From positions 62,001 through 126,000 of the forward strand of contig NZ_JAEKFT010000004.1 of assembly GCF_018524365.1 (NCBI RefSeq): a stretch of DNA of 64,000 nucleotides, given 5' to 3'. This document shows positions 11,885-27,980 of the stretch, one piece after another (position 1 is the stretch's first letter; each line of letters begins with the position of its first letter). The translations under genes and the position numbers were made by a program. Source of the stretch: Denitromonas iodatirespirans. Lineage in GTDB: Bacteria; Pseudomonadota; Gammaproteobacteria; Burkholderiales; Rhodocyclaceae. Below the pieces are notes generated by a model, which saw only the letters and a program-made list of their open reading frames with translations, was not told the origin of the DNA and did not search any database.

Positions 11885-13072
11885 ATGACGCCAGACGCAC
11901 CTCGCCCGTTTCGCCGCCGCCTGCTGGCCGCCGCCCTGCTGCTCGCCCTCGTGGCCGCCGGCCTCGCCGCCTGGGTGCACTTCTCCGCCGCACCGCCGGC
12001 CGCCGAGCGCTACCTGCTCGCCACCGTGCAGCGCGGTGAGCTGGAGGATGTGGTCACCGCCACCGGCACGCTGCAGCCGCGCGACCATGTGGATGTCGGC
12101 GCCCAGGTCTCCGGCCAGCTGCGCAAGATTCATGTCGAGGTCGGCGAACAGGTCGAGGCCGGTGCGCTGCTGGCCGAGATCGACCCCACCGTGTATCGCG
12201 CCCGTGTCGACGAGCGCCGCGCCCAGCTGCGCAGCCTGCGCGCCCAGCTCGACGACCGTGGCGCCCAGCTCGAACTGGCGCAGCTGCAGGCGCGCCGCCA
12301 GAAGAACCTGATCGCCGCCGACGCCACCACCACCGAGGCGGTGCAGGCGGCCGAGGCCACGCTGCGCTCGGCGCGCGCGCAGATCGAGGCGCTGCGTGCG
12401 CAGATCGCGCAGAGCGAATCGAGCCTGCGCGCCGACGAGGCCAACCTCGACTACGCGCGCATCTACGCACCGATGGCCGGCACGGTGGTATCGATCACCG
12501 CGCGCCAGGGCCAGACGCTCAACACCAACCAGTCGGCGCCGGTGATTCTGCGCATCGCCGACCTGTCGACGATGACCGTGCAGACCCAGGTCTCCGAGGC
12601 CGACATCGGCCGCCTGCGGCCGGGCATGGCCACTTACTTCACCACCCTGGGCGATGCGCGCCGGCGCTGGCCGGGCACGCTCGAAAAGATCGAGCCGACG
12701 CCCACGGTGACCAACAACGTGGTGCTCTACAACGCGCTGTTCGACGTGCCCAACCCCGAGCACGCGCTGATGACGCAGATGACCGCGCAGGTGTTCTTCA
12801 TCACCGCGCAGGCGCGCGATGCGCTGCTGGTGCCGATGGGCGCGGTGCGCTTCGCCGGCCGGCGCGGCACCGCCACCGGCGAAGGGCGGCGCGCCATGGT
12901 GCAGGTGGTGGCGGCGGACGGCAGCCTGGTCGAGCGCGAAGTGACCATCGGCACCACCAATCGCATCCAGGCGCAGGTGCTGTCCGGCCTCGAAGCCGGC
13001 GAGCAGGTGGTCGCCGGGCTGCGCGACGGCACGGCAGACGACACGCGCCGCCGCCCGCTGCGCGGCCTGTGA
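11885..13072 (+). CDS. macA: MacA-like periplasmic adaptor of a tripartite efflux pump
   Basis: The 395-residue protein has one N-terminal membrane anchor ([21 protein letters not shown]). A split biotinyl-lipoyl domain follows ([30 protein letters not shown]), then an alpha-helical hairpin at about 100-185 and a beta-barrel region, matching MacA. It joins the MacB ABC transporter to the outer membrane factor encoded next. Its stop overlaps the macB start by 4 bases. The Fur-like box upstream suggests an iron-linked role such as siderophore export, by analogy with Pseudomonas PvdRT-OpmQ; this is inference. Confidence 0.88.
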
Positions 13073-15054
13073 CGACGATGAAGCGCGACGCGGCGCCCTC
13101 CCTCGCGGCCACGCCGACGCCGCCCGCCGTGCCGCTGATCGCGCTGGCCGGCGTCACCAAGACCTACCGCAACGGCGAGCTGGCGGTCGAGGTGCTGCAC
13201 GGCATCGACCTGACCATCCACGCCGGCGAGTTCGTCGCCATCATGGGCGCCTCGGGCTCGGGCAAGTCCACCCTGATGCACCTGCTCGGCTGCCTGGACC
13301 GCCCCAGCAGCGGGCGCTACCGCTTCCTCGGCCATGACGTCGCCACGCTCGACGCCGACCAGCTGGCCGCGCTGCGCCGCGAGGCCTTCGGCTTCGTGTT
13401 TCAGGGCTACCACCTGATCGCCGGCGCCAGCGCACGCGAGAATGTCGAGGTGCCGGCGGTCTATGCCGGCATGCCGACCGCCGAACGCCACCGCCGCGCC
13501 GGTGAGCTGCTCGACGCGCTCGGCCTGGGCGACCGCCTCGACCATCGCCCCAACCAGCTCTCCGGCGGCCAGCAGCAGCGCGTGTCGATCGCCCGCGCGC
13601 TGATGAACGGCGGGCGCGTGATCCTCGCCGACGAGCCCACCGGCGCGCTCGACACCGCCAGCGGCGCCGCGGTGATGCGCCAGCTCGCCGAGCTGTCCGC
13701 CGCCGGCCACACGGTGATCCTCATCACCCACGCGCCCGAGGTGGCCGCGGTGGCCGAGCGCTGCATCGAGATCCGCGACGGGCGCATCGTCGCCGACCCC
13801 GGCCCGCAGCCGCCCGCCGCGCCGCCGCCGGCCTTCGTGCTGCGCCCCGACCATGTCTCGCATGTCGCCGACCTGATCGAGGCCACCCGCACCGCGCTGC
13901 GCTCGCTGCGCGCCAACGTGTTCCGCGCCGTCCTCACCCTGCTGGGCATCGTCATCGGCGTCGCCTCGGTGATCGCCATGCTGGCGATCGGCGACGGCGC
14001 GCGCCAGGAGGTCATCGACCGCATCTCCGCGATGGGCAGCGACCTGCTCTCGGTGCGCCCCGGCGCGCCCAACCAGCGCGGCCGCGCGGGCATCACCACC
14101 CTGGTGCCAGCCGACGCCGAGGCCATCGCCGAGCTGCCCAACGTGCGCGCCGCGGTGCCCGAGCAGAACGCGGCGATCACGCTGCGCTTCGGCGCCAACG
14201 ACCACCGCACCGACGCCAACGCCACCAGCGCCGACTACATCGTCGCCCGCCACTGGCCGCTGGCCAGCGGCACCTTCTTCTCCGCCGAGGACGAGCAGCG
14301 CTACGCCAGCGTGGCGGTGCTCGGGCGCACCGTCGCGCGCGCGCTGTTCCCCGACGGGCGCGACCCGGTCGGCCAATACGTGCTGGCCGACAACATCCTC
14401 TTCCAGGTGATCGGCGTGATGGCCCCGAAGGGCGCCACCAGCTGGGGGCGCGACCAGGACGACGTGATCTTCGTGCCCTATTCCACCGGCAGCATGCGCC
14501 TGTTCGGCCAGCGCCACCTGCGCAACATCACCGTAGCGGTCGAGGATGTGGCGCACATCGACGACACCCAGGCCGCGGTCGAGGCGCTGCTGCTCGAACG
14601 CCACGGGGTGGTCGATTTCCAGATCCGCAACATGGCCTCGATCATCGAGACCGCCGCCGAGACCCAGAACACGCTCACCGTGCTGCTCGGCTCCATCGCC
14701 GCCATCTCGCTGCTGGTCGGCGGCATCGGGGTGATGAACATCATGCTAGTGTCGGTCACCGAGCGCACCCGCGAGATCGGCATCCGCATGGCCACCGGCG
14801 CGCGTATGCGCAACATCCTGCAGCAGTTCCTCATCGAGGCGGTGGTGATCTCCGCACTCGGCGGCGCGCTGGGCGTGGCGATCGGCCTCGGCGTGGCGGC
14901 GATCATCGGTGCGCTGGGCACCCCGGTGGCCTACTCGCCGGCCCCGGTGCTGCTCGCCTTCGGTTGCGCCTTCGCCACCGGCCTGGTCTTCGGCTACCTG
15001 CCGGCACGCAAGGCCGCGCGCCTCGACCCTGTCGTGGCGCTGGCCTCGGAATGA
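13069..15054 (+). CDS. macB: MacB-like ABC exporter (fused ATPase and permease)
   Basis: The product is 661 residues. The N-terminal ATPase has Walker [10 protein letters not shown] (60-68), signature LSGGQQQR and Walker [11 protein letters not shown] first membrane helix follows near residue 285 ([21 protein letters not shown]), then the MacB periplasmic core domain and three C-terminal FtsX-type helices. This is the standard MacB architecture: ATP use in the cytoplasm drives export through MacA and an outer membrane channel. The GTG at 13069 overlaps the macA stop; an ATG at 13078 is the alternative. It overlaps the next gene by 4 bases. Confidence 0.92.
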
Positions 15055-16436
15055 TCATGCGACCGCTGTCCGCCCTCCTCCTGCCCCTGAGCCTCGCCGC
15101 CTGTGCGCTCACGCCACCGCCGGCGCCGCCGTCGATCGACATGCCCGCCGCGTGGTCGGCACCGACACCCGCCGGCGCACCGGTCGCCGACCCCTGGCCG
15201 GCCTTCGGCTCGCCGCATCTGGCGCAACTCATCGACGAAGCCCTCGCCGCCAGCCCGGATGTCGGCATCGGCGCGGCGCGCGTGCGCCAGGCCGAGGCCG
15301 CGCTGCGCAGCGCCGGCGCTTCGCGCTACCCCACCGTGGACCTCGACGCCGGCACCGACGCGCGGCGCAGCGACGGCGTCGAGCGCCGCAGCACCCGCGC
15401 CTCGCTGGGCATGGGCGTCGAGCTCGACCTGTGGGGCCGCATCGCCGCCGGGGTCAGCGGCGCCGAGGCCGGCCTCGCGGCCAGCCGCCACGACCTGGTC
15501 GCCCTGCGCCTGAGCCTCGCCGCCGGCGTCGCCGGCAGCTATGTCGACGCGCTGGCGCTGCGCGCGCGCCTGGCCATCGCGCGCGACAACCTGGCCATCG
15601 CCGAGCGCCTGCTGGCCATCGTCGAGGCGCGCTACCGCAACGGCGCCGCCTCGGCGCTCGACCTCGCCCGCCAGCGCGCCACCGTGCTGGCGCGGCGGGC
15701 GGCGATCCTGCCGCTCGAAGAGCAGCTGGTGCAGACCCGCTCGGCGCTCGCCCTGCTGCTCGGCCGACCACCGCAGGGCTTCGCCCTCGGCGACGAGGCG
15801 CTGGACACACTGACGGTGCCCGAGGTCGCCCCCGGCCTGCCAGCCGAGCTGCTGCTGCGCCGCCCCGACCTGGCCGCCGCCGAGGCACGCCTCGCCGCCG
15901 CCTCGGCCGACGTCACCGCCGCGCGCGCCGCGCTGCTGCCCGCCTTGCGCCTGACCGCCGCCGGCGGGCTGGCCAGCGAGGCCCTGCTCGCCTTCACCAA
16001 CCCGAGCCGCAGCGCCAGCCTGGGCGCCGCGCTGGCCCAGCGCCTGTTCGACGGCGGCGCGCGCGCGGCCGCCATCGACAGCGCCGAGGCGCGGCGCGAA
16101 GAGCAGATCGCACGCTACCGCCAGACGGTGCTCGCCGCGCTCAAGGAAGTCGAAGACGCGCTCGGCAACGTCGCGCTCGGCGCCCGCCAGCAAACGGCCG
16201 CGCAGGCCATCGTCGCCGAGTCGCGCCGCGCCCTGGCGCTTGCCGAGCTGCGCTACCGCGAGGGCGCCGACCCCCTGAGCGAGGTGCTCGACGCCCAGCG
16301 CACCCTGTTCGACGCCAAAGACCAGCTCGCCGGTTTCCGCCGCGACCGCCTCACCGCCGCCATCGCGCTGAGCCTCGCGCTGGGCGGCGGCTGGCAGTCA
16401 CCCACCGATCCGATCGCCCACGAGCCCGCCCGATGA
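15051..16436 (+). CDS. NodT-family outer membrane efflux lipoprotein
   Basis: A 461-residue TolC-like outer membrane factor with a lipoprotein signal ([10 protein letters not shown], Cys near residue 18). The two repeated halves of the OEP fold are visible as long Ala/Arg/Leu helices, and the motif [18 protein letters not shown] is typical of NodT-family proteins. The ATG at 15051 overlaps the macB stop; an ATG at 15057 is also possible. As the third gene of the macAB operon it supplies the outer membrane channel. It overlaps the oxidase gene downstream by 4 bases. Confidence 0.9.
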
Positions 16437-17533
16437 CCCACCGCCCGCCGCCCCTCGAGCGCATCCCACGCGAGATCGCCGCCGTCACCGACTACGAAGC
16501 CTTCGCCCGCGAGCGCCTCGACGACAACGCCTGGGCCTACCTCAACGGCGCCGCCGCCGACGAGTTGAGCGCGCGCTGGAACCGCGAGGCCTTCGAGCGC
16601 CTGCGCCTGGAATCGCGCGTGCTCGCCGAGGTGGCCGGCGGTCACACCCGGCTGGAACTCTTCGGCCAGCCCTTCGCCCACCCGGTGATGCTCGCCCCGC
16701 TCGCCTACCAGCGCCTCGCTCACCCGCACGGCGAGCTGGCCAGCGCGATGGCCGCCAGCGCCATGGCCGCCGGCATGGTGGTGAGCACGCTGGCCAGCGC
16801 GAGCCTGGAAGAGATCGCCGCCGCCAGCGAGGCGCCGCTGTGGTTTCAGCTCTATGTGCAGCCCGACCCCGGCGCCAACCGCGCGCTGATCGAACGCGCC
16901 GAGGCGGCCGGCTACCGCGCGCTGGTGATCACCGTGGACGCGCCGATCAACGGCGTGCGCAACCGCGAGCAACGCGCCGGCTTTCATCTGCCGGCCGGTG
17001 TCGAGGCGGTCAACCTGCACGGCCTGCCCACCCCCGCGCCGCGCGAACTGGCGCCCGACGCCAGCATCGTGTTCGATGGCCTGATGGCACGCGCCCCCAC
17101 CTGGCGCGACATCGCCCGGCTGCGCGAGCACACCCGCCTGCCGGTGCTGCTCAAGGGCGTGATGAGCGTCGCCGACGCGCGCCAGGCGCAGGCGATCGGC
17201 ATCGACGGGCTGATCGTCTCCAACCACGGCGGGCGCGTGCTCGACACCCTACCGGCCAGCCTCGACGCCCTGCCGCCGATCGCCGAGGCGGTCGGCAACG
17301 CCATGCCCCTGCTGCTCGACGGCGGCATCCGCCGCGGCACCGACGTGTTCAAGGCGCTCGCCCTGGGCGCCCGCGCCGTGCTGATCGGCCGCCCCTACGC
17401 CTACGCCCTGGCCGCCGCCGGCGCGCTGGGCGTGGCCCACGTGCTCAAGCTGCTGCGCGAGGAGCTGGAAGTGGCGATGGCACTGACCGGCTGCGCCACC
17501 CTGGCCGACATCGACCGCTCGCGGCTGGCCTGA
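16433..17533 (+). CDS. FMN-dependent alpha-hydroxy acid oxidase/dehydrogenase
   Basis: The 366-residue protein belongs to the lactate dehydrogenase / glycolate oxidase / lactate oxidase family. It shows APLAYQRLAHPHGE, the FMN and substrate segment WFQLYVQPD, K241 (LLKGVMS), catalytic H265 in SNHGGRVLD, and phosphate-loop DGGIRRGTDVFKALALGARAV (split here only for description). It converts a 2-hydroxy acid to a 2-oxo acid; the true substrate is unknown. Its location as last gene of the macAB operon, with a 4-base overlap, is unusual. Its last 42 codons are present again, diverged, at 23466-23592. Confidence 0.88.
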   Translation: MTHRPPPLERIPREIAAVTDYEAFARERLDDNAWAYLNGAAADELSARWNREAFERLRLESRVLAEVAGGHTRLELFGQPFAHPVMLAPLAYQRLAHPHGELASAMAASAMAAGMVVSTLASASLEEIAAASEAPLWFQLYVQPDPGANRALIERAEAAGYRALVITVDAPINGVRNREQRAGFHLPAGVEAVNLHGLPTPAPRELAPDASIVFDGLMARAPTWRDIARLREHTRLPVLLKGVMSVADARQAQAIGIDGLIVSNHGGRVLDTLPASLDALPPIAEAVGNAMPLLLDGGIRRGTDVFKALALGARAVLIGRPYAYALAAAGALGVAHVLKLLREELEVAMALTGCATLADIDRSRLA

Positions 17534-17575
17534 GCCACCCAGCGCAGCGTCCGTTTGGAAAACCGGGCGATCGCC

Positions 17576-18826
17576 TCAATTCGCCGGTGTATCGGTGACG
17601 GGCCGGAGGGTCTTCCGGCTTGCCGACAGCAAACGCCCGTTCCGCTTCTTCCACCACACATACACACCGGTCAGCGACAGCATGGCGACGACGAGTCCGA
17701 GCGCAGTGACGAAGAGCCGGTAAGGCAAGCCCCAGATCTGCGCCCGGTGCAGCGACGTGAGCCAAGTCGTGATCGTATCGCCGGCCGCTTTGCCGGTCGG
17801 CAGATAGGAGAGCAAGCGGTCGCCGCTTTCGGCGTCGAACAGCACTTGGGTGCTGCCTTCCGCACGGATGTCGAGGCTGCTGGTGACCCGGTAGCGGTAG
17901 CTGGCAGAGGCCGGCTGATACTGCAGGCTCTCGGCACGAATCACCTCGAACCCCTCCCGGACGGCCATCGCCGCCATGTGTCGCTCGCCGATCGCCAGGG
18001 CCGCCGTCCAGTCGAGGCGGGGCGTCGTCGATTCGGAACGACGCGGCGCAAGCGCTTCAGGGAGCGGCTGAAAGACAAAGGCTTGCTGCATGGCAGGCAG
18101 ATAGACCTCGCGCCCGAGATTGAAGGCGACCCCACTCCAGGCGAAGACCAACAGCATCGCCCATGTCCAGAGGCCGCCGGCCCGGTGCAAGTCGTAGTTG
18201 AGTTTGTAGACGCCGCCTCGCAAGCGCAGCTGCCAGGCCCGCCACCAACGCGCCGGCCACGCACGATCAGGCCGGCGCCCTCCACGCGGCCGGGCGGGAA
18301 AGGTCAAGTAAGCGCCGTTGAAACAATCGATGGTCCACAACAAGGCCACGACACCCATCAGCCACACCCCCAGCCGGTCGAGGGCCAGGGCGTAATGCAG
18401 CCGATCGATGAACGGAATGAGATTGTGCCAGCCCTCTTGGATCGCCCCGCGACGGCGGGCGCCGAGAATGTTGCCGGTGTAGGGGTCGACGAAGACCTCG
18501 TCGACGGTGAGGGGGAGCGATGCTCCGTCTGCCGCCGTCGCACGGGCTTCGAGACCGAAGACAATTGAAGCCTGTGGTCGAATATGCAGATTCACGTCAT
18601 TGACCGCAGCCTGGGGATAGGCCGCAGCGACCCGCTCTCGCAGCGCGAGCGGGTCGAGCGGGCGTGCCTCCGGACTCGGCGGATGGACCTTGAACCACCG
18701 CGGATTCAAGGTCGCATCGAGCTCGTGTTGCCACACCAGCAGCGCACCGCTCAGGCCCGCGACGGCGAGGAAGATCGCCAGCGCAAGACCGACATAGCGA
18801 TGCAGCACGACGAGTCCGGCACGCAT
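17576..18826 (-). CDS. PepSY-associated membrane protein, likely siderophore-iron reductase
   Basis: The product is 416 residues: an N-terminal helix (VVLHRYVGLALAIFLAVAGLSGALLVW), a PepSY-type periplasmic domain with DEVFVDPYTGNILG, internal membrane helices, and a C-terminal helix ending before WWKKRNGRL. His residues in or near the helices (LHRYVG, DRLHYAL, LHRAGG, LHRAQIWG) fit the PepSY_TM pattern of putative haem-binding inner membrane reductases found with TonB receptors. It starts one base after the stop of the FecA-like receptor, so translation is coupled and a role in iron release from the imported ligand is likely but inferred. Confidence 0.87.
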   Translation of the reverse strand: MRAGLVVLHRYVGLALAIFLAVAGLSGALLVWQHELDATLNPRWFKVHPPSPEARPLDPLALRERVAAAYPQAAVNDVNLHIRPQASIVFGLEARATAADGASLPLTVDEVFVDPYTGNILGARRRGAIQEGWHNLIPFIDRLHYALALDRLGVWLMGVVALLWTIDCFNGAYLTFPARPRGGRRPDRAWPARWWRAWQLRLRGGVYKLNYDLHRAGGLWTWAMLLVFAWSGVAFNLGREVYLPAMQQAFVFQPLPEALAPRRSESTTPRLDWTAALAIGERHMAAMAVREGFEVIRAESLQYQPASASYRYRVTSSLDIRAEGSTQVLFDAESGDRLLSYLPTGKAAGDTITTWLTSLHRAQIWGLPYRLFVTALGLVVAMLSLTGVYVWWKKRNGRLLSASRKTLRPVTDTPAN

Positions 18827-18827
18827 C

Positions 18828-21185
18828 TCAGAACGTGTACCTGAGCGCCAGCATCGCGCTGCGCGGCGCCCCCGGGTAGAGATAGTTGCCCTGGGTATCG
18901 TAGTAGGTCTTGTCGGTCACGTTCTTGATATGCAGCGCGAGATCGGTCTGGCGATCGATCTTCCAGTAGGCGGAGGCATCGATGCGCGTGTAGGCAGGGA
19001 TCTGCCATGTGTTGGGCAGTTCCGCCTCGCGCTTGCCGACATAGAACGCGCCCACCCCGATACCCACGCCGGGCAAGCCCCGGAAATCGTGGCGAACCCA
19101 CAGGCTGGCCTGGTTGCGCGGCGTGTTCAGCAGACGGTCACCGACCGGCAACGTCGTGTCCTGGGTCAGTTCGGCCTGCAGATGGGCATAGCTGCCGATC
19201 AGGCTCCAGCCGTCGCCGAGCTTGGCATTGAGATCGAACTCGATGCCACGCACGCGCTGCTCGCCGCTGAGGATCAACTGGTTGCTGTCGCTGGGATCGG
19301 TGGTTGCCACGTTTTCTTTGACGATCTGGAACAGCGTCACGCCTGCAATCACCGACTCGTCCAGCGAAGTGTATTTGTAGCCGGCTTCATATTGTTCGCC
19401 CCGTTCCGGTGTTGGGCTGGTGCCCGGTGCCAGCTGCGCATAGTTGGCAAATTGCGGAGTGAAACTACGGCCGTAGCTGGCAAAGATGCTGTGTTCGGGA
19501 TTGAATTTGTAGAGCACGCCAAGACGCGGTGTCGTCTCCGACTTGTCCAGCGAGGTGTCGCTGTTCTGGTCGCGGGCGCGGTTGCGCTGCTCGTACCAGG
19601 TGTAGCGCAGGCCCGCGAGAATGCGCCAATGCTCGCCGAGCTCGATCAGGTCCTGCACGTACAGCGAACGGCTTTGCGTATCGATGTCGTAGCGGTCCTG
19701 CGGACCGCGCTCGCGCGGATACTGGCCGTAGACCGGATTGAAAATGTCGATCGGGTAGAACGGCGTGCCGCTCGCATTGAAGTTGCGCCGGAAATCGTAC
19801 GATTGCGCCTTGTCGACCTGCTCGATGCCGGCCACCAGCGTATGGATGGTGCCGGCCAGGTGCAGGTCCCCGCGCAGCTCGGCAAAGACCGTCGTGTTCT
19901 CGTCGGTCTGCGGCATATAGACATACTGGCGGAACATGGTCTGGCCGGACAGTTGCCCGTTCTCGATGGAGTCCCGCACGCTGTCGGCGCGATACCAATT
20001 CACGCCGCCGCGAACCGACCATGCCGCGTCGAGACGATGGTTGAGCACGGCCGAGAGGTCGGTCTGTTCGAAATCGTAGCGGTTCTTCGGCTCGTCGAGG
20101 AAGCGGCTGCGCGGCAGCTTCAGCACGATCGGTCCGGCATCGTTGGTGAAGCCACGGTCGGCTGTATTCGTACTGTCGAGCCAGTAGCCGGACAACGCCA
20201 GGCGGGTATCCGGCTGGATGTCCCAGTCCAGCGTGGCGCCCAACGTGGCATGGCGGTTGTCGACATGATCGCGGAAACTGTCGGCCTGCTCGAAAGCACC
20301 GGTGAAGCGCATACGCACCGAGCGATCCTCCCCGGCCGTCGCCCCCACGTCAAATTCCGGACGCAGCAGATTGTCGCTGCCGACCGTCAGTTGCACGCTA
20401 TTGACCGGGTTTCGCGACGGTCGCTTTGTCACGTAGTTGATGATGCCGCCCGGCTCCAGGTCACCGTAGGTCACCGACGCCGGCCCTTTGATGACTTCGA
20501 CACGCTCCAGGTGCGCCGTGTCGGTAAAGGTGAAGTAGAAGTCGCGGCGAAAACCGTTCCACAGGCCGGTATCAGACAGGAAGCCGCGTACGCGATAGCT
20601 GTCGGTGAAACCGACATAGGCCGGATTGCGGGTAACGCCGCTGACGTTGCGCACGGCTTCGGCCGCACGGATCACGCCCTGATCCTCGATCACGGCCCGC
20701 GGAATGCTGACACCGGCCACCGGCAAATCCATCGGGTCGGCCGGCAGACGGGCGGCGGCATTGCTCGACGCGCCGGAGTAGCGGCTGATCGGCTCGCTGC
20801 CCGCCCGCACGATGACTTCGGCCAGCTGCACGTCCCGGTTCAGCCCGGCTGCGCCGGGCCGAGGCAGGATCACCACGCTGCTGCCGTCGATCCTGGCCGC
20901 CAGGCCGCTCCCCGCAAGCACTTGATCGAGCGCCTGGCGCACCGTCAGATCACCGGTGACGGCCGGGGCCTGTTTGCCCGTGAGCAAGTCGGGATTGACC
21001 AGAAGCTGAAGCCCCGCCTGCTTGGCCAGTTCGTTCAAGGCGGCGCCGAGCGGCTGGGCTTTCAAGGAAATGTCGACCGCCGCCGTACCTTGCTGTGCAT
21101 GGAGCGGCGCGACGACGCCGATGGAAAACAACGCAAACGCCGTAGCCACCGCGAGCGGCTTCAGGCAAAGAGACGGTTGGCGCAT
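18828..21185 (-). CDS. FecA-like TonB-dependent siderophore receptor with STN signalling domain
   Basis: The product is 785 residues: signal peptide (PLAVATAFALFSIGVVAPLHAQ), an N-terminal STN domain (about 40-90: AALNELAKQAGLQLLVNP, then VRQALDQVLAGSGL), a plug (YRVRGFLSDTG, VEVIKGPASVTYGDLEPGGIINYVTK) and a barrel ending ALRYTF with the terminal Phe needed for assembly. The STN domain contacts the FecR-like regulator encoded upstream, so ligand binding should switch on the FecI-type sigma factor. The ATG at 21185 follows AAGGG and starts the signal peptide; an upstream in-frame ATG at 21299 gives no signal peptide. The ligand is unknown. Confidence 0.93.
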   Translation of the reverse strand: MRQPSLCLKPLAVATAFALFSIGVVAPLHAQQGTAAVDISLKAQPLGAALNELAKQAGLQLLVNPDLLTGKQAPAVTGDLTVRQALDQVLAGSGLAARIDGSSVVILPRPGAAGLNRDVQLAEVIVRAGSEPISRYSGASSNAAARLPADPMDLPVAGVSIPRAVIEDQGVIRAAEAVRNVSGVTRNPAYVGFTDSYRVRGFLSDTGLWNGFRRDFYFTFTDTAHLERVEVIKGPASVTYGDLEPGGIINYVTKRPSRNPVNSVQLTVGSDNLLRPEFDVGATAGEDRSVRMRFTGAFEQADSFRDHVDNRHATLGATLDWDIQPDTRLALSGYWLDSTNTADRGFTNDAGPIVLKLPRSRFLDEPKNRYDFEQTDLSAVLNHRLDAAWSVRGGVNWYRADSVRDSIENGQLSGQTMFRQYVYMPQTDENTTVFAELRGDLHLAGTIHTLVAGIEQVDKAQSYDFRRNFNASGTPFYPIDIFNPVYGQYPRERGPQDRYDIDTQSRSLYVQDLIELGEHWRILAGLRYTWYEQRNRARDQNSDTSLDKSETTPRLGVLYKFNPEHSIFASYGRSFTPQFANYAQLAPGTSPTPERGEQYEAGYKYTSLDESVIAGVTLFQIVKENVATTDPSDSNQLILSGEQRVRGIEFDLNAKLGDGWSLIGSYAHLQAELTQDTTLPVGDRLLNTPRNQASLWVRHDFRGLPGVGIGVGAFYVGKREAELPNTWQIPAYTRIDASAYWKIDRQTDLALHIKNVTDKTYYDTQGNYLYPGAPRSAMLALRYTF

Positions 21186-21197
21186 CAACGAACCCTT

Positions 21198-21216
21198 AAT
21201 GAGATTGATAAGTATT
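21198..21216 (-). promoter_or_regulatory. Candidate Fur box just before the fecA-like start
   Basis: On the minus strand AATACTTATCAATCTCATT fits the betaproteobacterial Fur pattern at about 14 of 18 informative positions. It ends 12 bases before the receptor start, a place where bound repressor would block transcription. Confidence 0.4.
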
Positions 21217-21422
21217 TCCAACCGTGAAGACGGATGACGCAACAGAGTGTTGAGGTGGGCGGTGCAAGAAGTGTTTGCCGGCCAAGCCGGCCGGCGCATG
21301 CGGGCACCGCTGCCGTCAGGCGAACTTGGCGCACCGGCGCTCGCGATGGAGCCGGCGCGGTCGTCCGAGCACCGGCCGGCACGGGCAATCGCCCCGGGGA
21401 ACTGGAAGCCGCCCGCGAGCGG

Positions 21423-22553
21423 CTAACCTGCGCGGATGATCTCGACTTTGCCGCCGCTCCGGCGCAACCGCACGGGCAGTACCTCGGGCAAAGCCTTCAG
21501 GAAAGCGTCCAGCCGGCGCAGCTCAAAACTCCCGTGAACCCGCAGTCTGGCCACGACCGGATCGTCGATGACCACCCGCGTGTCGCCGTAGCGCTCGAAC
21601 TCCGCCACGGCCTGAGCGAGCGTGGCTCCCGCGAAGCTGACGCGACCGAGCCGCCACGCCTCCGTCATGTCGACGGAACGATCCGCCAAGGCCACACGGC
21701 CGGCCGCATCGACGGTGGCCGACTCGCCCGCGCCGAGCACCAACACGTCGCCCTCCTCGCCGCGCACCGCCGCGTGTGCTTGGGCAACCCGGACCCGCCC
21801 TTCTTCGACGGCAACGCCGACACCGTGGTCGAGCACGCCGGAGGGCGTTCGCCGGACGGTAAAGCGGGTGCCCACCACGGTGACCTCCGTCGTCCCCGCA
21901 TGAACATGGAAGGGGCGCCGGCTATCGGGGCTCACGCTGAAATGCGCCTGCCCTTCGTCCAGGCGAACCGTTCGACGATTGCGGTAGAGCACGACATCGG
22001 CCCGTGTGGCAGTGTCCAGCAAGATGGTGCTGCCGTCCGGCAGGGTAAATTGCTGCTGCATGCCGCGGTTCGTGGCCAGATGTTGCTGATATACCGGCTG
22101 CGCTTGCCACTCCTGCCACCCCATCCAGCCGCCGCCCAGGACGGCTAAAACCAGCGCCGCAGTCGCCAGTTGCGGCACGAACCGACCGATACCGAGAAAA
22201 CCCGTGGGCTTGTTGGCGTGGCAGACAGCCGACGTCCGCGGGGAAACCGATGGCCGCGCCAATGCAGCCTTCAGGCTGTCGACCCTGTCCGGCGGGATCT
22301 CGTCCATCCGGCCCCAAGTCCCTTCGAGGTCCTGCAGCGCCTCGCCATGGACCGGGTCCGCCGCCAGCCAGGCGTCGAGTTCGGCCTGTTCTTCCGGACC
22401 GAGCCCGTCCTGTCGTCGCACCAGCCAACGGGCGGCGACCACCGTGGCGGCGTCTTGAGCGGCCAGGAACGCCGCCAGATCCCGCCCCTCATCTAACGCC
22501 TGCGAACTGGCAGCGACGCTCAAGGGGTTGTCGGTCGGGCGATGTGCGTTCAT
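21423..22553 (-). CDS. FecR-like anti-sigma regulator
   Basis: The protein has 376 residues. An N-terminal cytoplasmic part carries the FecR N-terminal motif (AARWLVRRQDG, LDAWLAADPVHGEAL), followed by one membrane helix at about 135-155 (LATAALVLAVLGGGWMGW). A periplasmic FecR domain follows (QQFTLPDGSTILLDT, TVVGTRFTVRR, GEGRVRVAQ-like) and an STN-like C-terminus. It transmits the signal from the receptor to the sigma factor. The ATG at 22553 lacks a clear ribosome site; ATG codons at 22601 and 22616, close to the sigma gene stop, are alternatives. It is encoded between the sigma gene and the receptor, the usual order. Confidence 0.9.
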   Translation of the reverse strand: MNAHRPTDNPLSVAASSQALDEGRDLAAFLAAQDAATVVAARWLVRRQDGLGPEEQAELDAWLAADPVHGEALQDLEGTWGRMDEIPPDRVDSLKAALARPSVSPRTSAVCHANKPTGFLGIGRFVPQLATAALVLAVLGGGWMGWQEWQAQPVYQQHLATNRGMQQQFTLPDGSTILLDTATRADVVLYRNRRTVRLDEGQAHFSVSPDSRRPFHVHAGTTEVTVVGTRFTVRRTPSGVLDHGVGVAVEEGRVRVAQAHAAVRGEEGDVLVLGAGESATVDAAGRVALADRSVDMTEAWRLGRVSFAGATLAQAVAEFERYGDTRVVIDDPVVARLRVHGSFELRRLDAFLKALPEVLPVRLRRSGGKVEIIRAG

Positions 22554-22625
22554 GGGCGGGTACGGGCGTGATGTCTTTGTAGACGAGCGAGACCATGGCA
22601 TGTTGAGGTCACACACATGTAGGTG

Positions 22626-23144
22626 TCATTCGCCAGCCTGACCGACACCGCCCCGGTCGCGATGGCGATCGTCACAGGCCTTGCAGACCAGGACACCGCG
22701 CATGATGTGCTGCGCCACCATGTTGCGGGAAATCCCCATGCGATCGGCAATCTCCTGGTGCGATAGCCCATCGAAGCGATTGAGGATGAACGCCTCCCGG
22801 CACCGGGGCGGCAGGCTCTCGATGGCCTGAACCATCGCCCGGACATACTGAAGCGCCGCGTACTGCGCTTCGGGCTGCAAGTGGGTCGGCGCGTGCGGAC
22901 CCTGGTCATCCCCGAGCGCATCGAGCGAGGCGAGGCCGCGGACGGCATCGTGGCGTGCCCGGTCGACGAGCAGATTCCGGGCCACCCGATAGAGCAGCGC
23001 TCTGGGATCGCCGATTACCGCCCCCGACTGCTGTAGCGCCAGGACCCGGATGTAGCTTTCCTGCGCCAAGTCCGATGCGGTATCGCTGTCATTGACCTTG
23101 CGGGTGAGGAAGTTTTTCAGCTCGCGGTAGTAGCGCTCGAACAT
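22626..23144 (-). CDS. FecI-type ECF sigma factor
   Basis: The product is 172 residues. Region 2 (FERYYRELKNFLTRKVNDSDTA, ASDLAQESYIRVL) and region 4 (LPPRCREAFILNRFDGLSHQEIA, MGISRNMVAQHI) are plain. It should direct transcription of the downstream fecA-like receptor when released by the FecR-like protein. The ATG at 23144 is preferred because the family starts with this helix; a TTG at 23231 is in frame but lies inside a Fur-like box. Expression is probably iron-controlled through that box. Confidence 0.93.
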   Translation of the reverse strand: MFERYYRELKNFLTRKVNDSDTASDLAQESYIRVLALQQSGAVIGDPRALLYRVARNLLVDRARHDAVRGLASLDALGDDQGPHAPTHLQPEAQYAALQYVRAMVQAIESLPPRCREAFILNRFDGLSHQEIADRMGISRNMVAQHIMRGVLVCKACDDRHRDRGGVGQAGE

Positions 23145-23213
23145 GGGCCAGGGAGGAAGGCTGAAGAGATCACCGATGTGCCTCCTGGCGGCGGCTTGGC
23201 TACACGACCGGTA

Positions 23214-23232
23214 AATGCGATTGCTTCTCAAT
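23214..23232 (-). promoter_or_regulatory. Candidate Fur box before the fecI-like gene
   Basis: AATGCGATTGCTTCTCAAT (plus-strand reading) shares AATGCGA-n4-TT-TC with the site before macA. It ends about 70 bases before the sigma factor start. Confidence 0.45.
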
Positions 23233-23316
23233 GCGCAGCATTCTAGCGCAGTTCCCCGCGGTTGAATCCACCGGACCGATCATGGCATGCGCCCCTGCGC
23301 ACTCCCGATGCACCGG

Positions 23317-23462
23317 CGCCACGGGCATCACGGCAGCCTCCGCCGCAATGCCCGCGTCTGACACCGATTCACATCAGCGGGCGACCACCCGCTGACCGAT
23401 GTGGACCAGCGCCGCGTCCACCTGATCGATGAGGATCAGGCACAGGTCGCCCTCGTCCAGGC
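23317..23462 (-). pseudogene. Second copy of the cphA 3' end (scar, left half)
   Basis: This stretch aligns without gaps to 25353-25498 (offset 2036) with about 8 mismatches in 146 bases. It contains the last 28 codons of the cyanophycin synthetase, its stop (23374-23376), and the downstream hairpin in weakened form (two stem mismatches). Only one codon differs (Ala to Val), while the non-coding part holds most other changes. It has no start and cannot make a protein. It stops at about 23462, where the oxidase fragment begins. Confidence 0.88.
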
Positions 23463-23597
23463 AATCCTGGCTACCGTCGGCGCGCTGGGTGTCGCCCACG
23501 TGCTCAAGCTGCTGCGCGAGGAACTGGAAGTGACGATGGCGCTGACCGGTTGCGCCACCCTGGCCGACATCGACCGCTCGCGGCTGGCCTGAGCCAC
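23463..23597 (+). pseudogene. Second copy of the hydroxy acid oxidase 3' end (scar, right half)
   Basis: From about 23466 the sequence aligns to 17407-17538 (offset 6059) and carries the last 42 or so codons of the oxidase, including its stop at 23590. Over the closest 38 codons there are six base changes, five of them synonymous. It lacks the FMN and catalytic regions. A 63-codon open frame that runs through the join (23401-23592) reads antisense cphA before oxidase sequence and is an artefact. The following 230 bases up to the CdiI-like gene hold nothing I recognise. Confidence 0.88.
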
Positions 23598-23827
23598 GGG
23601 GGCACAAAGCTCACCCTCGCTCGAATGCAGCGCAGGGAAATCCGGGAAATCGGAGGACCCCCGGATTCCTACCAGCGGCCTGCATCGGGTCGCACCAGCC
23701 ACGGTGTCGCCCGCACCAGCGGGCAGCTCGCGCCCATGTCGACGGTGCGCACCGTGCTGCAGAAGAAGGCGATTGCCGGCAAGCTTTACTACATACTGAC
23801 GGCGTTCCCGATCCCTTGAGTTTCCCG

Positions 23828-24157
23828 ATGAGCGACACCTCATATCCCGCACTCGAACAGCTCTTGAGTGCGTACTTTCATCAGGACTGGTGCGATGACC
23901 ACAACACCGAAGCCGACGTGCTTGCCGATTACCTGAAATCCACGTGGCGGGATGAAGTGATATGGACAATTGAGCAGATCGATCGGTATCTGCGCGACCA
24001 TCCGACAAACCTTCTGGAGGCCTTTGAACGCGAGTTCACGCCGATGATTGCAACCGGCACGAACGACGATGAAGCGCAAGCGTGGCTGAGGCGCGCGCGG
24101 GATCAGCTCCAGTCCGACAAAGAGAGCGCACCGGTTCGTCCGGCGTCGCCCAGTTGA
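23828..24157 (+). CDS. CdiI-like contact-dependent inhibition immunity protein (orphan)
   Basis: A 109-residue acidic, helical, cytoplasmic protein. The pattern YPALEQLLSAYFHQDW, then DEVIWTIEQIDRYLRDHP and a C-terminal AWLRRARDQL helix resembles the CdiI_2 family of immunity proteins. Those proteins neutralise nuclease-type toxins of contact-dependent inhibition systems. No CdiA/CdiB or toxin gene is in the window, so this would be an orphan immunity gene giving protection against neighbours. The ATG at 23828 is used; a TTG at 23816 would add four residues. Lower GC than its surroundings fits acquisition. The family call is by eye. Confidence 0.6.
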   Translation: MSDTSYPALEQLLSAYFHQDWCDDHNTEADVLADYLKSTWRDEVIWTIEQIDRYLRDHPTNLLEAFEREFTPMIATGTNDDEAQAWLRRARDQLQSDKESAPVRPASPS

Positions 24158-24202
24158 GATTGATGGGGCTACTGATCAATGACACCGGCCCCAATGATCC
24201 TC

Positions 24203-24595
24203 TCAACGCGGCCCGGCGCACATCAAACGCAAGGTTCTGGCATCACCATCGGCCCCCACGGCACCCAAATCAAACGCCTTCAATCCACCGGATTTCAGAT
24301 TCACTTCGCCGCGATGGAGCAGGATCTGCCTGCCTCCCTGCAGAACCAGGCTGTGATACCCCGCCATGGCGGACACACAGCCGCAGGCCCCGATCGGTTG
24401 AATCACGGTGGCATCCGCATCAAGCCAGAGCGAACCGTGCTCGACACGCAAGCTCCTAGGGACGAGATCCACGCAGTCGGCCAAGCGATTATCCATGGCA
24501 GGCAACGGCATCACCGGGCCGTCAACAGCCGCGCATGCCGTTGAAAGAAAAACAGCACCGAGCAAACAGAAGGGCCTAAACACGCGTGCCCCCAT
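24203..24595 (-). CDS. DUF2195-like lipoprotein, candidate immunity protein
   Basis: The 130-residue product has a lipoprotein signal with lipobox LSTAC (Cys near residue 21). The mature part contains CGCVSAMAGYHSLVLQ and ends LMCAGPR, resembling the small DUF2195 family. It overlaps the 3' end of the transpeptidase-like gene by 20 bases and would sit in the periplasm, where that enzyme would act. Effector then exported partner, with overlapping reading frames, is the usual layout of an effector-immunity pair, so immunity is the favoured but unproven role. Confidence 0.6.
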   Translation of the reverse strand: MGARVFRPFCLLGAVFLSTACAAVDGPVMPLPAMDNRLADCVDLVPRSLRVEHGSLWLDADATVIQPIGACGCVSAMAGYHSLVLQGGRQILLHRGEVNLKSGGLKAFDLGAVGADGDARTLRLMCAGPR

Positions 24596-25094
24596 TGGTC
24601 CGCCTACCTTCCGCGTACTTCACCCGCAGCAGGAAATAGCCTTTCGTCGCCCCCACGGAGCGCGCACGCAAGACAGGGAAAAACCCGGGCTCCACCTCGA
24701 TGCAACCGTGGCTGTAGCCTTTGGTCGAGTCATGCAGATAAAAGCCCCCGCGGCGCGGTGAGCAGGCGTTTCGCGTCTCGGCATCGGCCGGCTCCAGTCG
24801 AACCCGGTTGCGCCCCCAGTTGGCCCAGTAGGGCTCGCAGTCGCCCGCATCGACACCGCGCGGAATCGACTGAACCCCCCAGGCCGGCGACAGGTTGCAG
24901 GTGCCGCTGCCGTCATCCTTGGCCACGCCCCGATCCGCCACATAGACCTTGTACAATCCCTGCGGCGTCGGCCCCGCATCCGGCACACAATCGTTCGTCG
25001 GCATCTGAAAACCCACCATGCCCGATGTCGCCTTGAACACCCCGGAGCCGGACCAGGTCAGACGTTGTCCGTCGAAACTCATGTCTGCGTGCAT
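24576..25094 (-). CDS. Tlde1-like (DUF2778-type) L,D-transpeptidase-fold effector candidate
   Basis: The product is 172 residues without a signal peptide. GPTPQGLYKVYVADRG and GRNRVRLEPAD match the start of the DUF2778/Tlde1 fold. The catalytic segment GGFYLHDSTKGYSHGCI (residues 116-132) supplies H121, the SHGC motif and nucleophile C131, followed by an Arg-rich end. Tlde1 proteins are type VI-delivered enzymes that attack peptidoglycan stems in the target periplasm. Lack of a signal peptide and a size close to Tlde1 (about 170) fit this. The ATG at 25094 follows GAGGAGAG. No type VI secretion gene is in the window, so delivery would rely on a locus elsewhere. Confidence 0.7.
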   Translation of the reverse strand: MHADMSFDGQRLTWSGSGVFKATSGMVGFQMPTNDCVPDAGPTPQGLYKVYVADRGVAKDDGSGTCNLSPAWGVQSIPRGVDAGDCEPYWANWGRNRVRLEPADAETRNACSPRRGGFYLHDSTKGYSHGCIEVEPGFFPVLRARSVGATKGYFLLRVKYAEGRRTNGGTRV

Positions 25095-25199
25095 GCTTCT
25101 CTCCTCTTTGCCGCTTGTGCGTTGACCATCAGCGCGCAAAATAGCACATCAGCATAGTCGCAAGACAGCAAACATCGCAGATCCCATGGCGCGGAACGC

Positions 25200-25331
25200 A
25201 TGATCCGCCTGATCGTCGTCTTTCTGATGCGGACGGTCGTCGTCCCGTTGGCCTTGCTGTGGGGGCTGTATCGAGTGACGATGGGCCTGCCGACGGTGGG
25301 CGCTGCGAGTTCGGGCCGGGTCGATCGATGA
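25200..25331 (+). CDS. Possible 43-residue single-pass membrane protein
   Basis: A short open frame MIRLIVVFLMRTVVVPLALL with continuing hydrophobic residues to about position 30, then a polar tail ending RVDR. It would be one membrane helix. The ribosome site is weak (GGAA). It lies in the 315-base stretch between the effector candidate and cphA, which otherwise holds only the hairpin at 25358. It may not be expressed. Confidence 0.25.
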   Translation: MIRLIVVFLMRTVVVPLALLWGLYRVTMGLPTVGAASSGRVDR

Positions 25332-25357
25332 CCTAAACCCCGGGGGGCATGCCGCCA

Positions 25358-25390
25358 CGGGCATTGCGGCAGTCTTCGCCGCAATGCCCG
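25358..25390. terminator. 13-bp perfect hairpin downstream of cphA
   Basis: CGGGCATTGCGGC, a 7-base loop and GCCGCAATGCCCG form a perfect stem, 20 bases beyond the cphA stop. There is no long T run, so it may act as a weak or Rho-assisted terminator or mRNA 3' stabiliser. A copy with two stem mismatches is in the scar at 23322-23354. Confidence 0.6.
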
Positions 25391-25409
25391 CGTTTGATAC
25401 CGATTCACA

Positions 25410-27980
25410 TCAGCGGGCGACCACCCGCTGACCGATGTGAGCCAGCGCCGCGTCCACCTGATCGATGAGGATCAGGCACAGGTCGCCCTCGTCCAGGCGG
25501 TCGAGGGCGGTGTCGATGGCCAGGAACTCGCCGTAGATCTCGTCCACCCGGGCGGTGCGGCGCGCGTCGGCCAGCCCTTCGCGCAGCAGGCGCAGCACTT
25601 CGCCGTCGGCACGGCCGCGCTGGCAGGCGTCCTCGTAGAGGATCACGTCGTCGAAGGCGTCGCCGAGCTGGCGCGTCTGGGCGGTGATGTCTTCGTCGCG
25701 CCGGTCGCCGGCGCCGCTGATCACCACGCTGCGCCGCTTGCCGGGCATGGCTTCGACGGCCCGCACCAGCGCCGAGATGGCATCCGGGTTGTGGCCGTAG
25801 TCGGCGATCACGGTGGCACCGCGGTGGCGGAACAGGTTGAAACGCCCCGGCGCGGAGGCCGTGGTGCTCTCGAAGGTTTCCAGCGCACGGTCGATCACCG
25901 CCCAGTCGATGTCCAGCGACCACGCCGCTGCCATGACGGCCATGACGTTTTCGACCTGGAAGGCGATCGCGCCGCCCAGCGTCAGCGGCACCCGCGCCAG
26001 GGGGATGCGATGAATCACCTCGCCTTCGACCGCGCACAGATCGTCGCCCTCGCGCACCACCACCCGGCGCCCCAGCGCCCGGTGCAGGGCGGCGGCCGGC
26101 GCATCGGCCTGGCTGGCGAAGAACACCACTTTGCCGGGGCAGTGCACAGCCATCGCCACGGTGTGCGGATCGCAGGCATTGAGCACGGCGGTGCCGGTGG
26201 GCGCTACGTTCTGCACGACCACGCGCTTGAGCACCGACAGATCTTCGACCGAATTGATGTAGTTGAGCCCGAGGTGGTCGCCCACGCCGATGTTGGTGAC
26301 GATGGCCACATCGCACATGTCGAAGCCCAGGCCCTCGCGCAGCATGCCGCCGCGCGCGCATTCGAGCACCGCGGCATCGACCTCGGGATGGCTGAGCACG
26401 TTGCGCGCGCTCTTCGGTCCGCTGCAGTCGCCGGTGTCGGTGCAGCGGCCGTTCACATGCACGCCCTCGGTGCCGGTGAAGCCGGTGCGGTAGCCGGCCT
26501 GCGTGAGCAGGTGGGCCATCAGGCGCACCGTGGTGGTCTTGCCGTTGGTGCCGGTGACGGCCACCACCGGAATGCGGCCGTTGTCGCCGTTGGTGTAGAG
26601 CATGTCGACCACCGCCTGACCCACGTCGCGCCCCTTGCCGTAACTGGGCGACAGGTGCATGCGCAGACCGGGCGCGGCATTGACTTCGACGATGCTGCCG
26701 CCCTGCGCTTCGAGCGGCTGGCCGACCGTCTCGCACACCACGTCGACACCGCAGATGTCGAGGCCGATCATCTGCGCGGCCTCGATGGCACGCGCCGCCA
26801 CCTCGGGGTGGACATCGTCGGTCACGTCGGTGGCGGTGCCGCCGGTCGACAGGTTGGCATTGTTGCGCAACACCACGCGCGCCCCCTTGGGCGGCACGTC
26901 TTCCGGGGTGAAGCCCTGCAGCTTGAGACGGGCCACGGCGATCTCGTCGAAGCGGATCTTGGTCAGCGAGGTGGCATGGCCTTCGCCGCGGCGCGGATCG
27001 GCATTGACGATGTCGACCAGCTGGCGCACGGTGTGCTCGCCGTCGCCGATCACGTGCGGCGGCTCGCGCCGCGCAGCGGCAACCAGCGTGTTGCCCACCA
27101 CCAGCAGGCGGAAGTCATGGCCCGGGCTGAAGCGCTCGACCATCACCTCGTCGCTGTAGTCGTGCGCGGCGTGATAGGCCACTTCGAGGTGGTCGCGGGT
27201 GAGGATGTTCACCGTCACGCCCTTGCCCTGGTTGCCGTCCTGCGGCTTGACCACCACCGCGTCGCCGATCTCGCACATCGCCGCCCAGGCGTCTTCGGCG
27301 TCCGTCACCGGCCGACCGTCGGGCGTGGGCACGCCGGCGGCGCGCAGCAGCTGCTTGGTCAGGTCCTTGTCCTGGGCGATCGACTCGGCGATGGCCGAGG
27401 TGGAATCGATCTCGGCCGCCTGGATGCGCCGCTGCTTGCTGCCCCAGCCGAACTGCACCAGCGAACCGTCGGTCAGCCGGCGGTAGGGGATGCCGCGCGC
27501 CACGGCGGCATGGACGATCGATGCGGTGCTCGGTCCGAGGCGGATGTCGGCATCGAGTTCATGCAGCTGCTGGACGATCGCGGCCAGATCGAAGGGCGCA
27601 TCGGCCAGCGCCGCGGCGATCAGCTGCTCGGCGAAATCGACCGCCATGCGCCCCACGGCCTCTTCGGTGTATTCCACCACCACCTGGAACACCCCGCGAT
27701 CCACGGTGGCGTTGCAGCGCACGAAGCTGACCGGGCAACCGGCCTCGGCCTGCAGGCCGAGGGTGGCGAAGCCCAGCACATGGGCCAGTGTGATGTCGCC
27801 TTGATGGCCGACCGGCCGCATCGCGCCGATGGTCGGGAAGCGTTCGCGCAGGCGCGCTTCGAAGCCGGGCAGATCGGCCAGTGCCAGCTCGGTGTCGGTG
27901 CAATGCACCAGGGCTTCGAAGCTGGTCAGCCGGCTCCACAGGTTGGGGCCGCGCAGGGCACGCAGACGGGTGATTTCCAT
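25410..27980 (-). CDS. cphA: Cyanophycin synthetase
   Basis: The 856-residue enzyme has the three parts of CphA1: N-terminal domain (1-160), an ATP-grasp domain (about 200-450; VVVKPQDGNQGKGV, VEVNAAPGLRMHL) that adds Asp, and a Mur-ligase-like domain with P-loop GTNGKTTT (477-484) that adds Arg to the Asp side chain. It polymerises Asp and Arg into cyanophycin granules, a nitrogen store. It follows the second synthetase gene by 13 bases on the same strand. Its 3' end, with the downstream hairpin, is repeated at 23317-23462. Confidence 0.95.
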   Translation of the reverse strand: MEITRLRALRGPNLWSRLTSFEALVHCTDTELALADLPGFEARLRERFPTIGAMRPVGHQGDITLAHVLGFATLGLQAEAGCPVSFVRCNATVDRGVFQVVVEYTEEAVGRMAVDFAEQLIAAALADAPFDLAAIVQQLHELDADIRLGPSTASIVHAAVARGIPYRRLTDGSLVQFGWGSKQRRIQAAEIDSTSAIAESIAQDKDLTKQLLRAAGVPTPDGRPVTDAEDAWAAMCEIGDAVVVKPQDGNQGKGVTVNILTRDHLEVAYHAAHDYSDEVMVERFSPGHDFRLLVVGNTLVAAARREPPHVIGDGEHTVRQLVDIVNADPRRGEGHATSLTKIRFDEIAVARLKLQGFTPEDVPPKGARVVLRNNANLSTGGTATDVTDDVHPEVAARAIEAAQMIGLDICGVDVVCETVGQPLEAQGGSIVEVNAAPGLRMHLSPSYGKGRDVGQAVVDMLYTNGDNGRIPVVAVTGTNGKTTTVRLMAHLLTQAGYRTGFTGTEGVHVNGRCTDTGDCSGPKSARNVLSHPEVDAAVLECARGGMLREGLGFDMCDVAIVTNIGVGDHLGLNYINSVEDLSVLKRVVVQNVAPTGTAVLNACDPHTVAMAVHCPGKVVFFASQADAPAAALHRALGRRVVVREGDDLCAVEGEVIHRIPLARVPLTLGGAIAFQVENVMAVMAAAWSLDIDWAVIDRALETFESTTASAPGRFNLFRHRGATVIADYGHNPDAISALVRAVEAMPGKRRSVVISGAGDRRDEDITAQTRQLGDAFDDVILYEDACQRGRADGEVLRLLREGLADARRTARVDEIYGEFLAIDTALDRLDEGDLCLILIDQVDAALAHIGQRVVAR

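Follow-up and report, generated by a model that had tools for sequence, protein, structure and literature searches.

Fused copies of two gene ends between unrelated gene islands in Denitromonas iodatirespirans, a possible trace of additive recombination

The window, by which we mean the whole 64,000-nucleotide stretch of DNA analyzed here, corresponds to C137:62001-126000 in the draft genome of Denitromonas iodatirespirans, which consists of 5,176,345 bases in 201 contigs. From left to right, the locus carries genes for HlyD, MacB, an outer-membrane efflux protein, and an FMN oxidase (plus strand, ending at 17533), followed by a siderophore cluster on the minus strand, a short stretch that we call the scar, a 1.75-kb patchwork, and the cphA gene on the minus strand. 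The oxidase gene is taken as 16253-17533, with a provisional start codon, and encodes an FMN_dh domain. The cphA gene (25410-27980) encodes cyanophycin synthetase, and a second cphA-like gene is located behind it. The row of genes that ends with the oxidase (11885-17533) has a GC content of 74%, compared to 67% for the contig. Relatives of HlyD and MacB also precede the oxidase in Azoarcus indigens, Thauera sp. Sel9, and T. butanivorans (L092, L093, and L108), and the nearest oxidase comes after a TonB receptor in seven of the eight stretches that were read from the genus.

The first of the two gene islands, cargo 1, is a siderophore-uptake cluster (17576-23231) assigned with Pfam and NCBIfam models. 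All of its genes are on the minus strand, and they encode an ECF sigma factor (22626-23231), FecR (21423-22616), a TonB-dependent siderophore receptor (18828-21299), and a PepSY membrane protein (17576-18826). The second island, cargo 2, includes on its left a repeat-like piece (23619-23689), which has matches of 70 to 93% in its own genome and in several others (contig C119 of the own genome at 82%, G004, G006 [two], G020 [two], G213 [two], and G223) and is possibly a REP-like element. Next to it, on the plus strand, lie the truncated end of a gene with an RNase A-type CdiA-CT domain (23685-23819; the last 42 of the 113 positions of PF18431) and a CdiI_2 immunity protein gene (23816-24157; PF18593). 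Two other genomes (L229 and L230) have intact relatives of the CdiA-CT piece next to a member of the same immunity family. The minus strand carries a DUF2195 gene (24203-24595; PF09961), which overlaps the end of an L,D-transpeptidase-like gene (24576-25139; YkuD score of 24.1 bits at a cut-off of 23.4, and a Tlde1_dom score of 23 bits, below the Pfam cut-off of 30.1). These two genes form a putative effector-immunity pair; the word DUF2195 was absent from the papers found, among the matches listed. At the right edge of the island, a plus-strand remnant (25191-25331) resembles the end of a 315-amino-acid protein from another member of the genus (85% over 34 aligned amino acids) and represents the C-terminus of a membrane protein. 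Overall, 23685-25331 is pieced together from antibacterial toxin and immunity fragments, and four displaced gene ends, including the two of the scar, are found within about 2 kb. Matches to cargo 1 are present in 81 of the 297 genomes of the family, with those outside its own genome being weak (at best 67% over 0.9 kb), and matches to cargo 2 are present in 27 of the 297.

In the 281 bases between the two islands, the ends of both flanking genes recur as worn copies, fused back to back. The first half (23317-23462, minus strand) is a copy of the cphA 3′ end. It comprises coding sequence at 23374-23462, with the stop codon at 23374-23376, and 57 nucleotides of the cphA downstream flank with a hairpin, and it matches the intact cphA end and hairpin flank (25353-25498, minus strand) at 94.5% identity over 146 nucleotides (self-BLAST of the window, E = 6.7e−60). 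The second half (23466-23597, plus strand) is a copy of the oxidase 3′ end and matches the intact end (17407-17538, plus strand) at 93.2% identity over 132 nucleotides (self-BLAST of the window, E = 1.1e−50). Like the first half, it consists of the last codons, the stop codon (which ends at 23592), and flank, here of 5 nucleotides. Between the halves lies AAT (23463-23465), which can be read from the alignment either as filler or as two changed cphA bases followed by an overlap of 1 to 2 bases. The scar has CCAGGC-AAT-CCTGGC across the join, while the intact cphA runs on with GGTCG and the matching oxidase piece is preceded by CGC; 0 to 3 bases are therefore outside both halves, with either 0 to 2 shared bases or a 3-nucleotide filler.

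These alignments bear out the preliminary description of the locus, in which two gene ends that are intact elsewhere in the window were said to be repeated and fused, with the order and strand that a tandem-type join of two "oxidase end - cargo - cphA end" intervals would give. The oxidase half had been placed at 23463-23597; its end stands, and its start moves to 23466, with AAT before it. For each half of the scar, the nearest DNA found is the intact gene of the same genome. A search of that genome matched three places, namely the scar itself and both intact ends, and there was no further copy of the scar among the 40 of 172 first-look candidates that were scored. An all-versus-all repeat comparison of 263,928 of the 265,928 contig bases, together with stretches of 13,309 and 19,001 bases from two other contigs, returned three pairs of at least 60 nucleotides above 80% identity: the two scar pairs and one 61-nucleotide match of 85% inside the MacB gene. 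The fusion is real, and the stretch looks like an old recombination scar of an ordinary kind, probably without function.

At all four flanks, homology ends on GCCAC. With a slash marking the edge, the sequences behind the two oxidase ends are TGAGCCAC/CC and TGAGCCACGGG/GGC, and both cphA flanks read C/GCCACGGGCAT. Among 400,000 random position pairs on the contig, a 5-mer edge match arose by chance in 0.64%, and the share for the 8-mer GCCACGGG was 0.02% per copy; with the left position fixed ten bases behind a TGA the chance was 0.54% for the 5-mer and 0.016% for the 8-mer, in a test that was devised after the match had been noticed. Because every homology edge is on GCCAC, we infer that the oxidase and cphA genes were probably contiguous before any cargo, meeting at a single shared hairpin (TGAGCCACGGGCATTGCGGC...), and that each copy may later have been opened there. 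The former junction may have been CTGAGCCACGGGCATTGCGGC-loop-GCCGCAATGCCCG, that is, a convergent gene pair with a single shared hairpin located four bases behind the oxidase stop codon. The predicted empty junction had no match in viral contigs. A short join pattern (17 letters, two of them open) that was also searched in viral contigs was set aside due to chance hits.

On folding, the hairpin beside the intact cphA has 13 unbroken pairs on the plus strand, and its copy in the scar has two unpaired places on the plus strand and G-U pairs on the minus strand. The two stem changes were considered as proof of decay and dropped, because the G-U pairs remain when the minus strand is folded. In the scar hairpin (23314-23376), pairing is kept via G-U only on the minus strand, which is the direction from the L,D-transpeptidase and DUF2195 genes toward cargo 1. 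The hairpin might still act between that unit and cargo 1, and two changes prove nothing in this respect. With up to three mismatches allowed, the hairpin together with its edge occurs in just these two places in 10 genomes of the genus, and the contig has three occurrences of one 12-base hairpin arm.

The coding part of the cphA half has one changed codon, as had been described (GCT in the intact gene and GTC in the scar, alanine to valine, two bases differing). For the oxidase half, five of six changes had been counted as synonymous; across the whole piece the count is six of nine, with three non-synonymous, and the earlier figure is what remains once the first codons next to the join, with their three changes, are omitted. 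Under four neutral models with an expected synonymous share of 0.30 to 0.42, six or more synonymous changes out of nine have a P of 0.035 to 0.125, and six or more out of 10 changed codons, cphA included, have a P of 0.056 to 0.20. The subset of five out of six gives a stronger result than the full set (P = 0.015 to 0.052). The argument that the copies diverged under selection, and that import is favored on that account, is at best weakly supported, since the synonymous excess is weak and the polarized changes fit an unconstrained scar.

To polarize the changes, the majority state (two to one or more) among 108 distinct oxidase and 31 distinct cphA relatives was taken as ancestral. Three non-synonymous and three synonymous changes fell on the scar side, none and two, respectively, on the intact side, and three sites (two synonymous, one non-synonymous) were undecided, in a comparison limited by few sites, distant relatives, and saturated third positions, in which a GC-rich majority can look ancestral. 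At the changed cphA codon, the 31 relatives have alanine in 26 cases, glutamate in five, and valine in none; its third base is the T of the intact gene in 0 of the 31 and the C of the scar in 10. Measured against the 40 nearest oxidases, the scar has 0.251 mismatches per base and the intact copy 0.225. Given the 3:3 ratio on the scar side versus 0:2 on the intact side, the scar appears to have drifted after it was formed. The polarized changes tend, short of proof, to fit a decaying remnant free of constraint, and they lean toward a local origin or merely age.

In none of the relatives examined are the oxidase and cphA genes neighbors, and their adjacency therefore looks special to the lineage of D. 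iodatirespirans. The search covered 199 genomes per gene, with two candidates scored per genome, among the matches listed. At least 18 genomes had both genes above 250 bits, five on the same contig at a distance of at least 0.36 Mb and 13 on separate contigs. The two genes were together in 0 of 14 further stretches and in 0 of 80 named oxidase loci (flanks of up to 10 kb, many of them shorter). The scar, used as a query, matched eight of the nine other genomes of the genus that were compared, every match falling within one of the two gene ends at no more than 84% identity; two of these eight have both gene ends, at separate places. A search of plasmid records at the "near" setting found no match. 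In the four genomes of the genus whose cphA surroundings were read (L074-L077), the sequence behind cphA is collinear, and the gene after cphA, scanned in one of them, carries PAS, GGDEF, and EAL domains. The best match of that gene in the D. iodatirespirans genome is on another contig (G000:C91:87649-91254, 71%) and is a candidate for a displaced neighbor. Identity along cphA to three relatives is 0.79 to 0.82 in the first 250 bases and 0.81 to 0.94 in the next seven windows, and it is lowest (0.75 to 0.79) at 2.5 to 3 kb, around the cphA start and the end of the second gene; there is no clear mosaic breakpoint in these identity windows.

We consider the best reading to be a scar of additive, partly illegitimate recombination at a cargo hotspot, at a probability just short of one half. 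As order, strand, and join show, a second "oxidase end - (cargo) - cphA end" was joined in tandem to the resident one, almost without shared bases, with one side of the join within cphA and the other within the oxidase gene. Most likely, the donor of the second copy would have been a close relative that carried another cargo at this position, and the copy would have arrived as a DNA fragment. One end would have entered by homologous recombination in the oxidase or cphA gene and the other by illegitimate joining; alternatively, the fragment would have been ligated into a circle that then integrated by a single crossover. A single event of this kind would produce two different cargos, duplicates of both gene ends, and one chimeric blunt join. 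Such an event is in line with halves of 93 to 95% identity in the right order and strand, with a join of 0 to 3 extra bases, with the shared GCCAC at all four edges, and with the unequal changes on the scar and intact sides. The left and right intervals also have no cargo in common, which would be expected had one of them come from a strain carrying another cargo. Since duplication alone should give two units with identical cargo, this keeps import in play and leans toward an incoming fragment.

Both routes resemble processes in the available part of PMC3240628, where one-sided homologous integration with an illegitimate other end, usually at 3 to 10 bp of microhomology and with a deletion, is described alongside ligation of linear DNA with single-crossover integration. 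The first would leave a homologous end and an illegitimate one, and the second a ligated join and a duplicate of each flank. Compared with the usual picture, the scar has two shared bases at most and no visible deletion, and the event is deduced from one genome rather than observed. Additive integration is also weakened by the fact that neither a donor nor a single-cargo relative was found among the genomes searched, and by the faster scar side, which would equally fit a purely local origin and was polarized on few sites and distant relatives. A ComEC gene is present, but it says little, as the same search was positive in 10 of 14 control genomes, including Escherichia coli.

Such a local origin, in which the oxidase-cphA interval, empty or with an early cargo, was duplicated in tandem by illegitimate joining and each unit then underwent cargo insertion, loss, or replacement, is a serious contender on the unlikely side. 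The novel end-to-start, same-strand join expected of a tandem duplication is present, with the cphA end joined bluntly to the oxidase end in the order of the units. According to the available part of PMC11111574, illegitimate tandem duplications in bacteria have head-to-tail joins of unrelated sequences with little or no microhomology, and microhomology is not necessary for them. Local duplication would also agree with the unconstrained look of the scar side, and two copies of an empty junction would set all edges on the same bases. However, unlike the tandem duplications of that source, the two units here differ in their interiors. Where the same interior would be expected twice, the cargos share nothing beyond a 13-nucleotide word (E = 0.12), and with just the ends in common, further events would be needed, both of them ending at the same bases. 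In a more specific version that we view as highly improbable, the hairpin foot between the two convergent genes would be a site-specific landing place for recombinase-less cassettes, with a target repeat of GCCAC or GCCACGGG, and both copies of a duplicated junction would have been opened there independently, by the siderophore-uptake cassette and by the toxin-immunity patchwork.

Very unlikely, too, is an integrase- or transposon-type element that duplicated its target or regenerated gene 3′ ends on insertion. It would be in keeping with edges that lie immediately after the oxidase stop codon and at the base of the hairpin, and with a possible target repeat of 5 to 8 bp, GCCAC(GGG), but the cargo open reading frames scanned against Pfam contain neither an integrase nor a transposase domain, and by eye the two cargos have no matching ends. 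Moreover, elements of this type replace one gene end, whereas here two different ends are fused. Finally, the join might be an assembly artifact, made end to end from the contigs of two strains that differ in their cargo or from chimeric DNA. The genome is a draft in 201 contigs, the repeats of 132 and 146 nucleotides are near a read length, and a divergence of 5 to 7% resembles strain variation. Nevertheless, we judge an artifact to be improbable: the window and the stretches of the same genome that were read contain no N, the estimated contamination is 0.45%, no second pair of this kind occurs in the 263,928 contig bases compared, and assemblers normally make no joins without overlap.

Like the hotspots of horizontal transfer covered in the available part of PMC5635113, the locus has unrelated cargo of different make-up at one place; where a hotspot would lie between conserved neighbors, the oxidase and cphA genes were adjacent in no relative examined. 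From this one genome the join, both old edges, and the probable empty site can all be read, and the scar thereby records how two unrelated islands became neighbors. Known mechanisms are unchanged by it, and it bears on the question of whether cargo sites grow by addition rather than by replacement.
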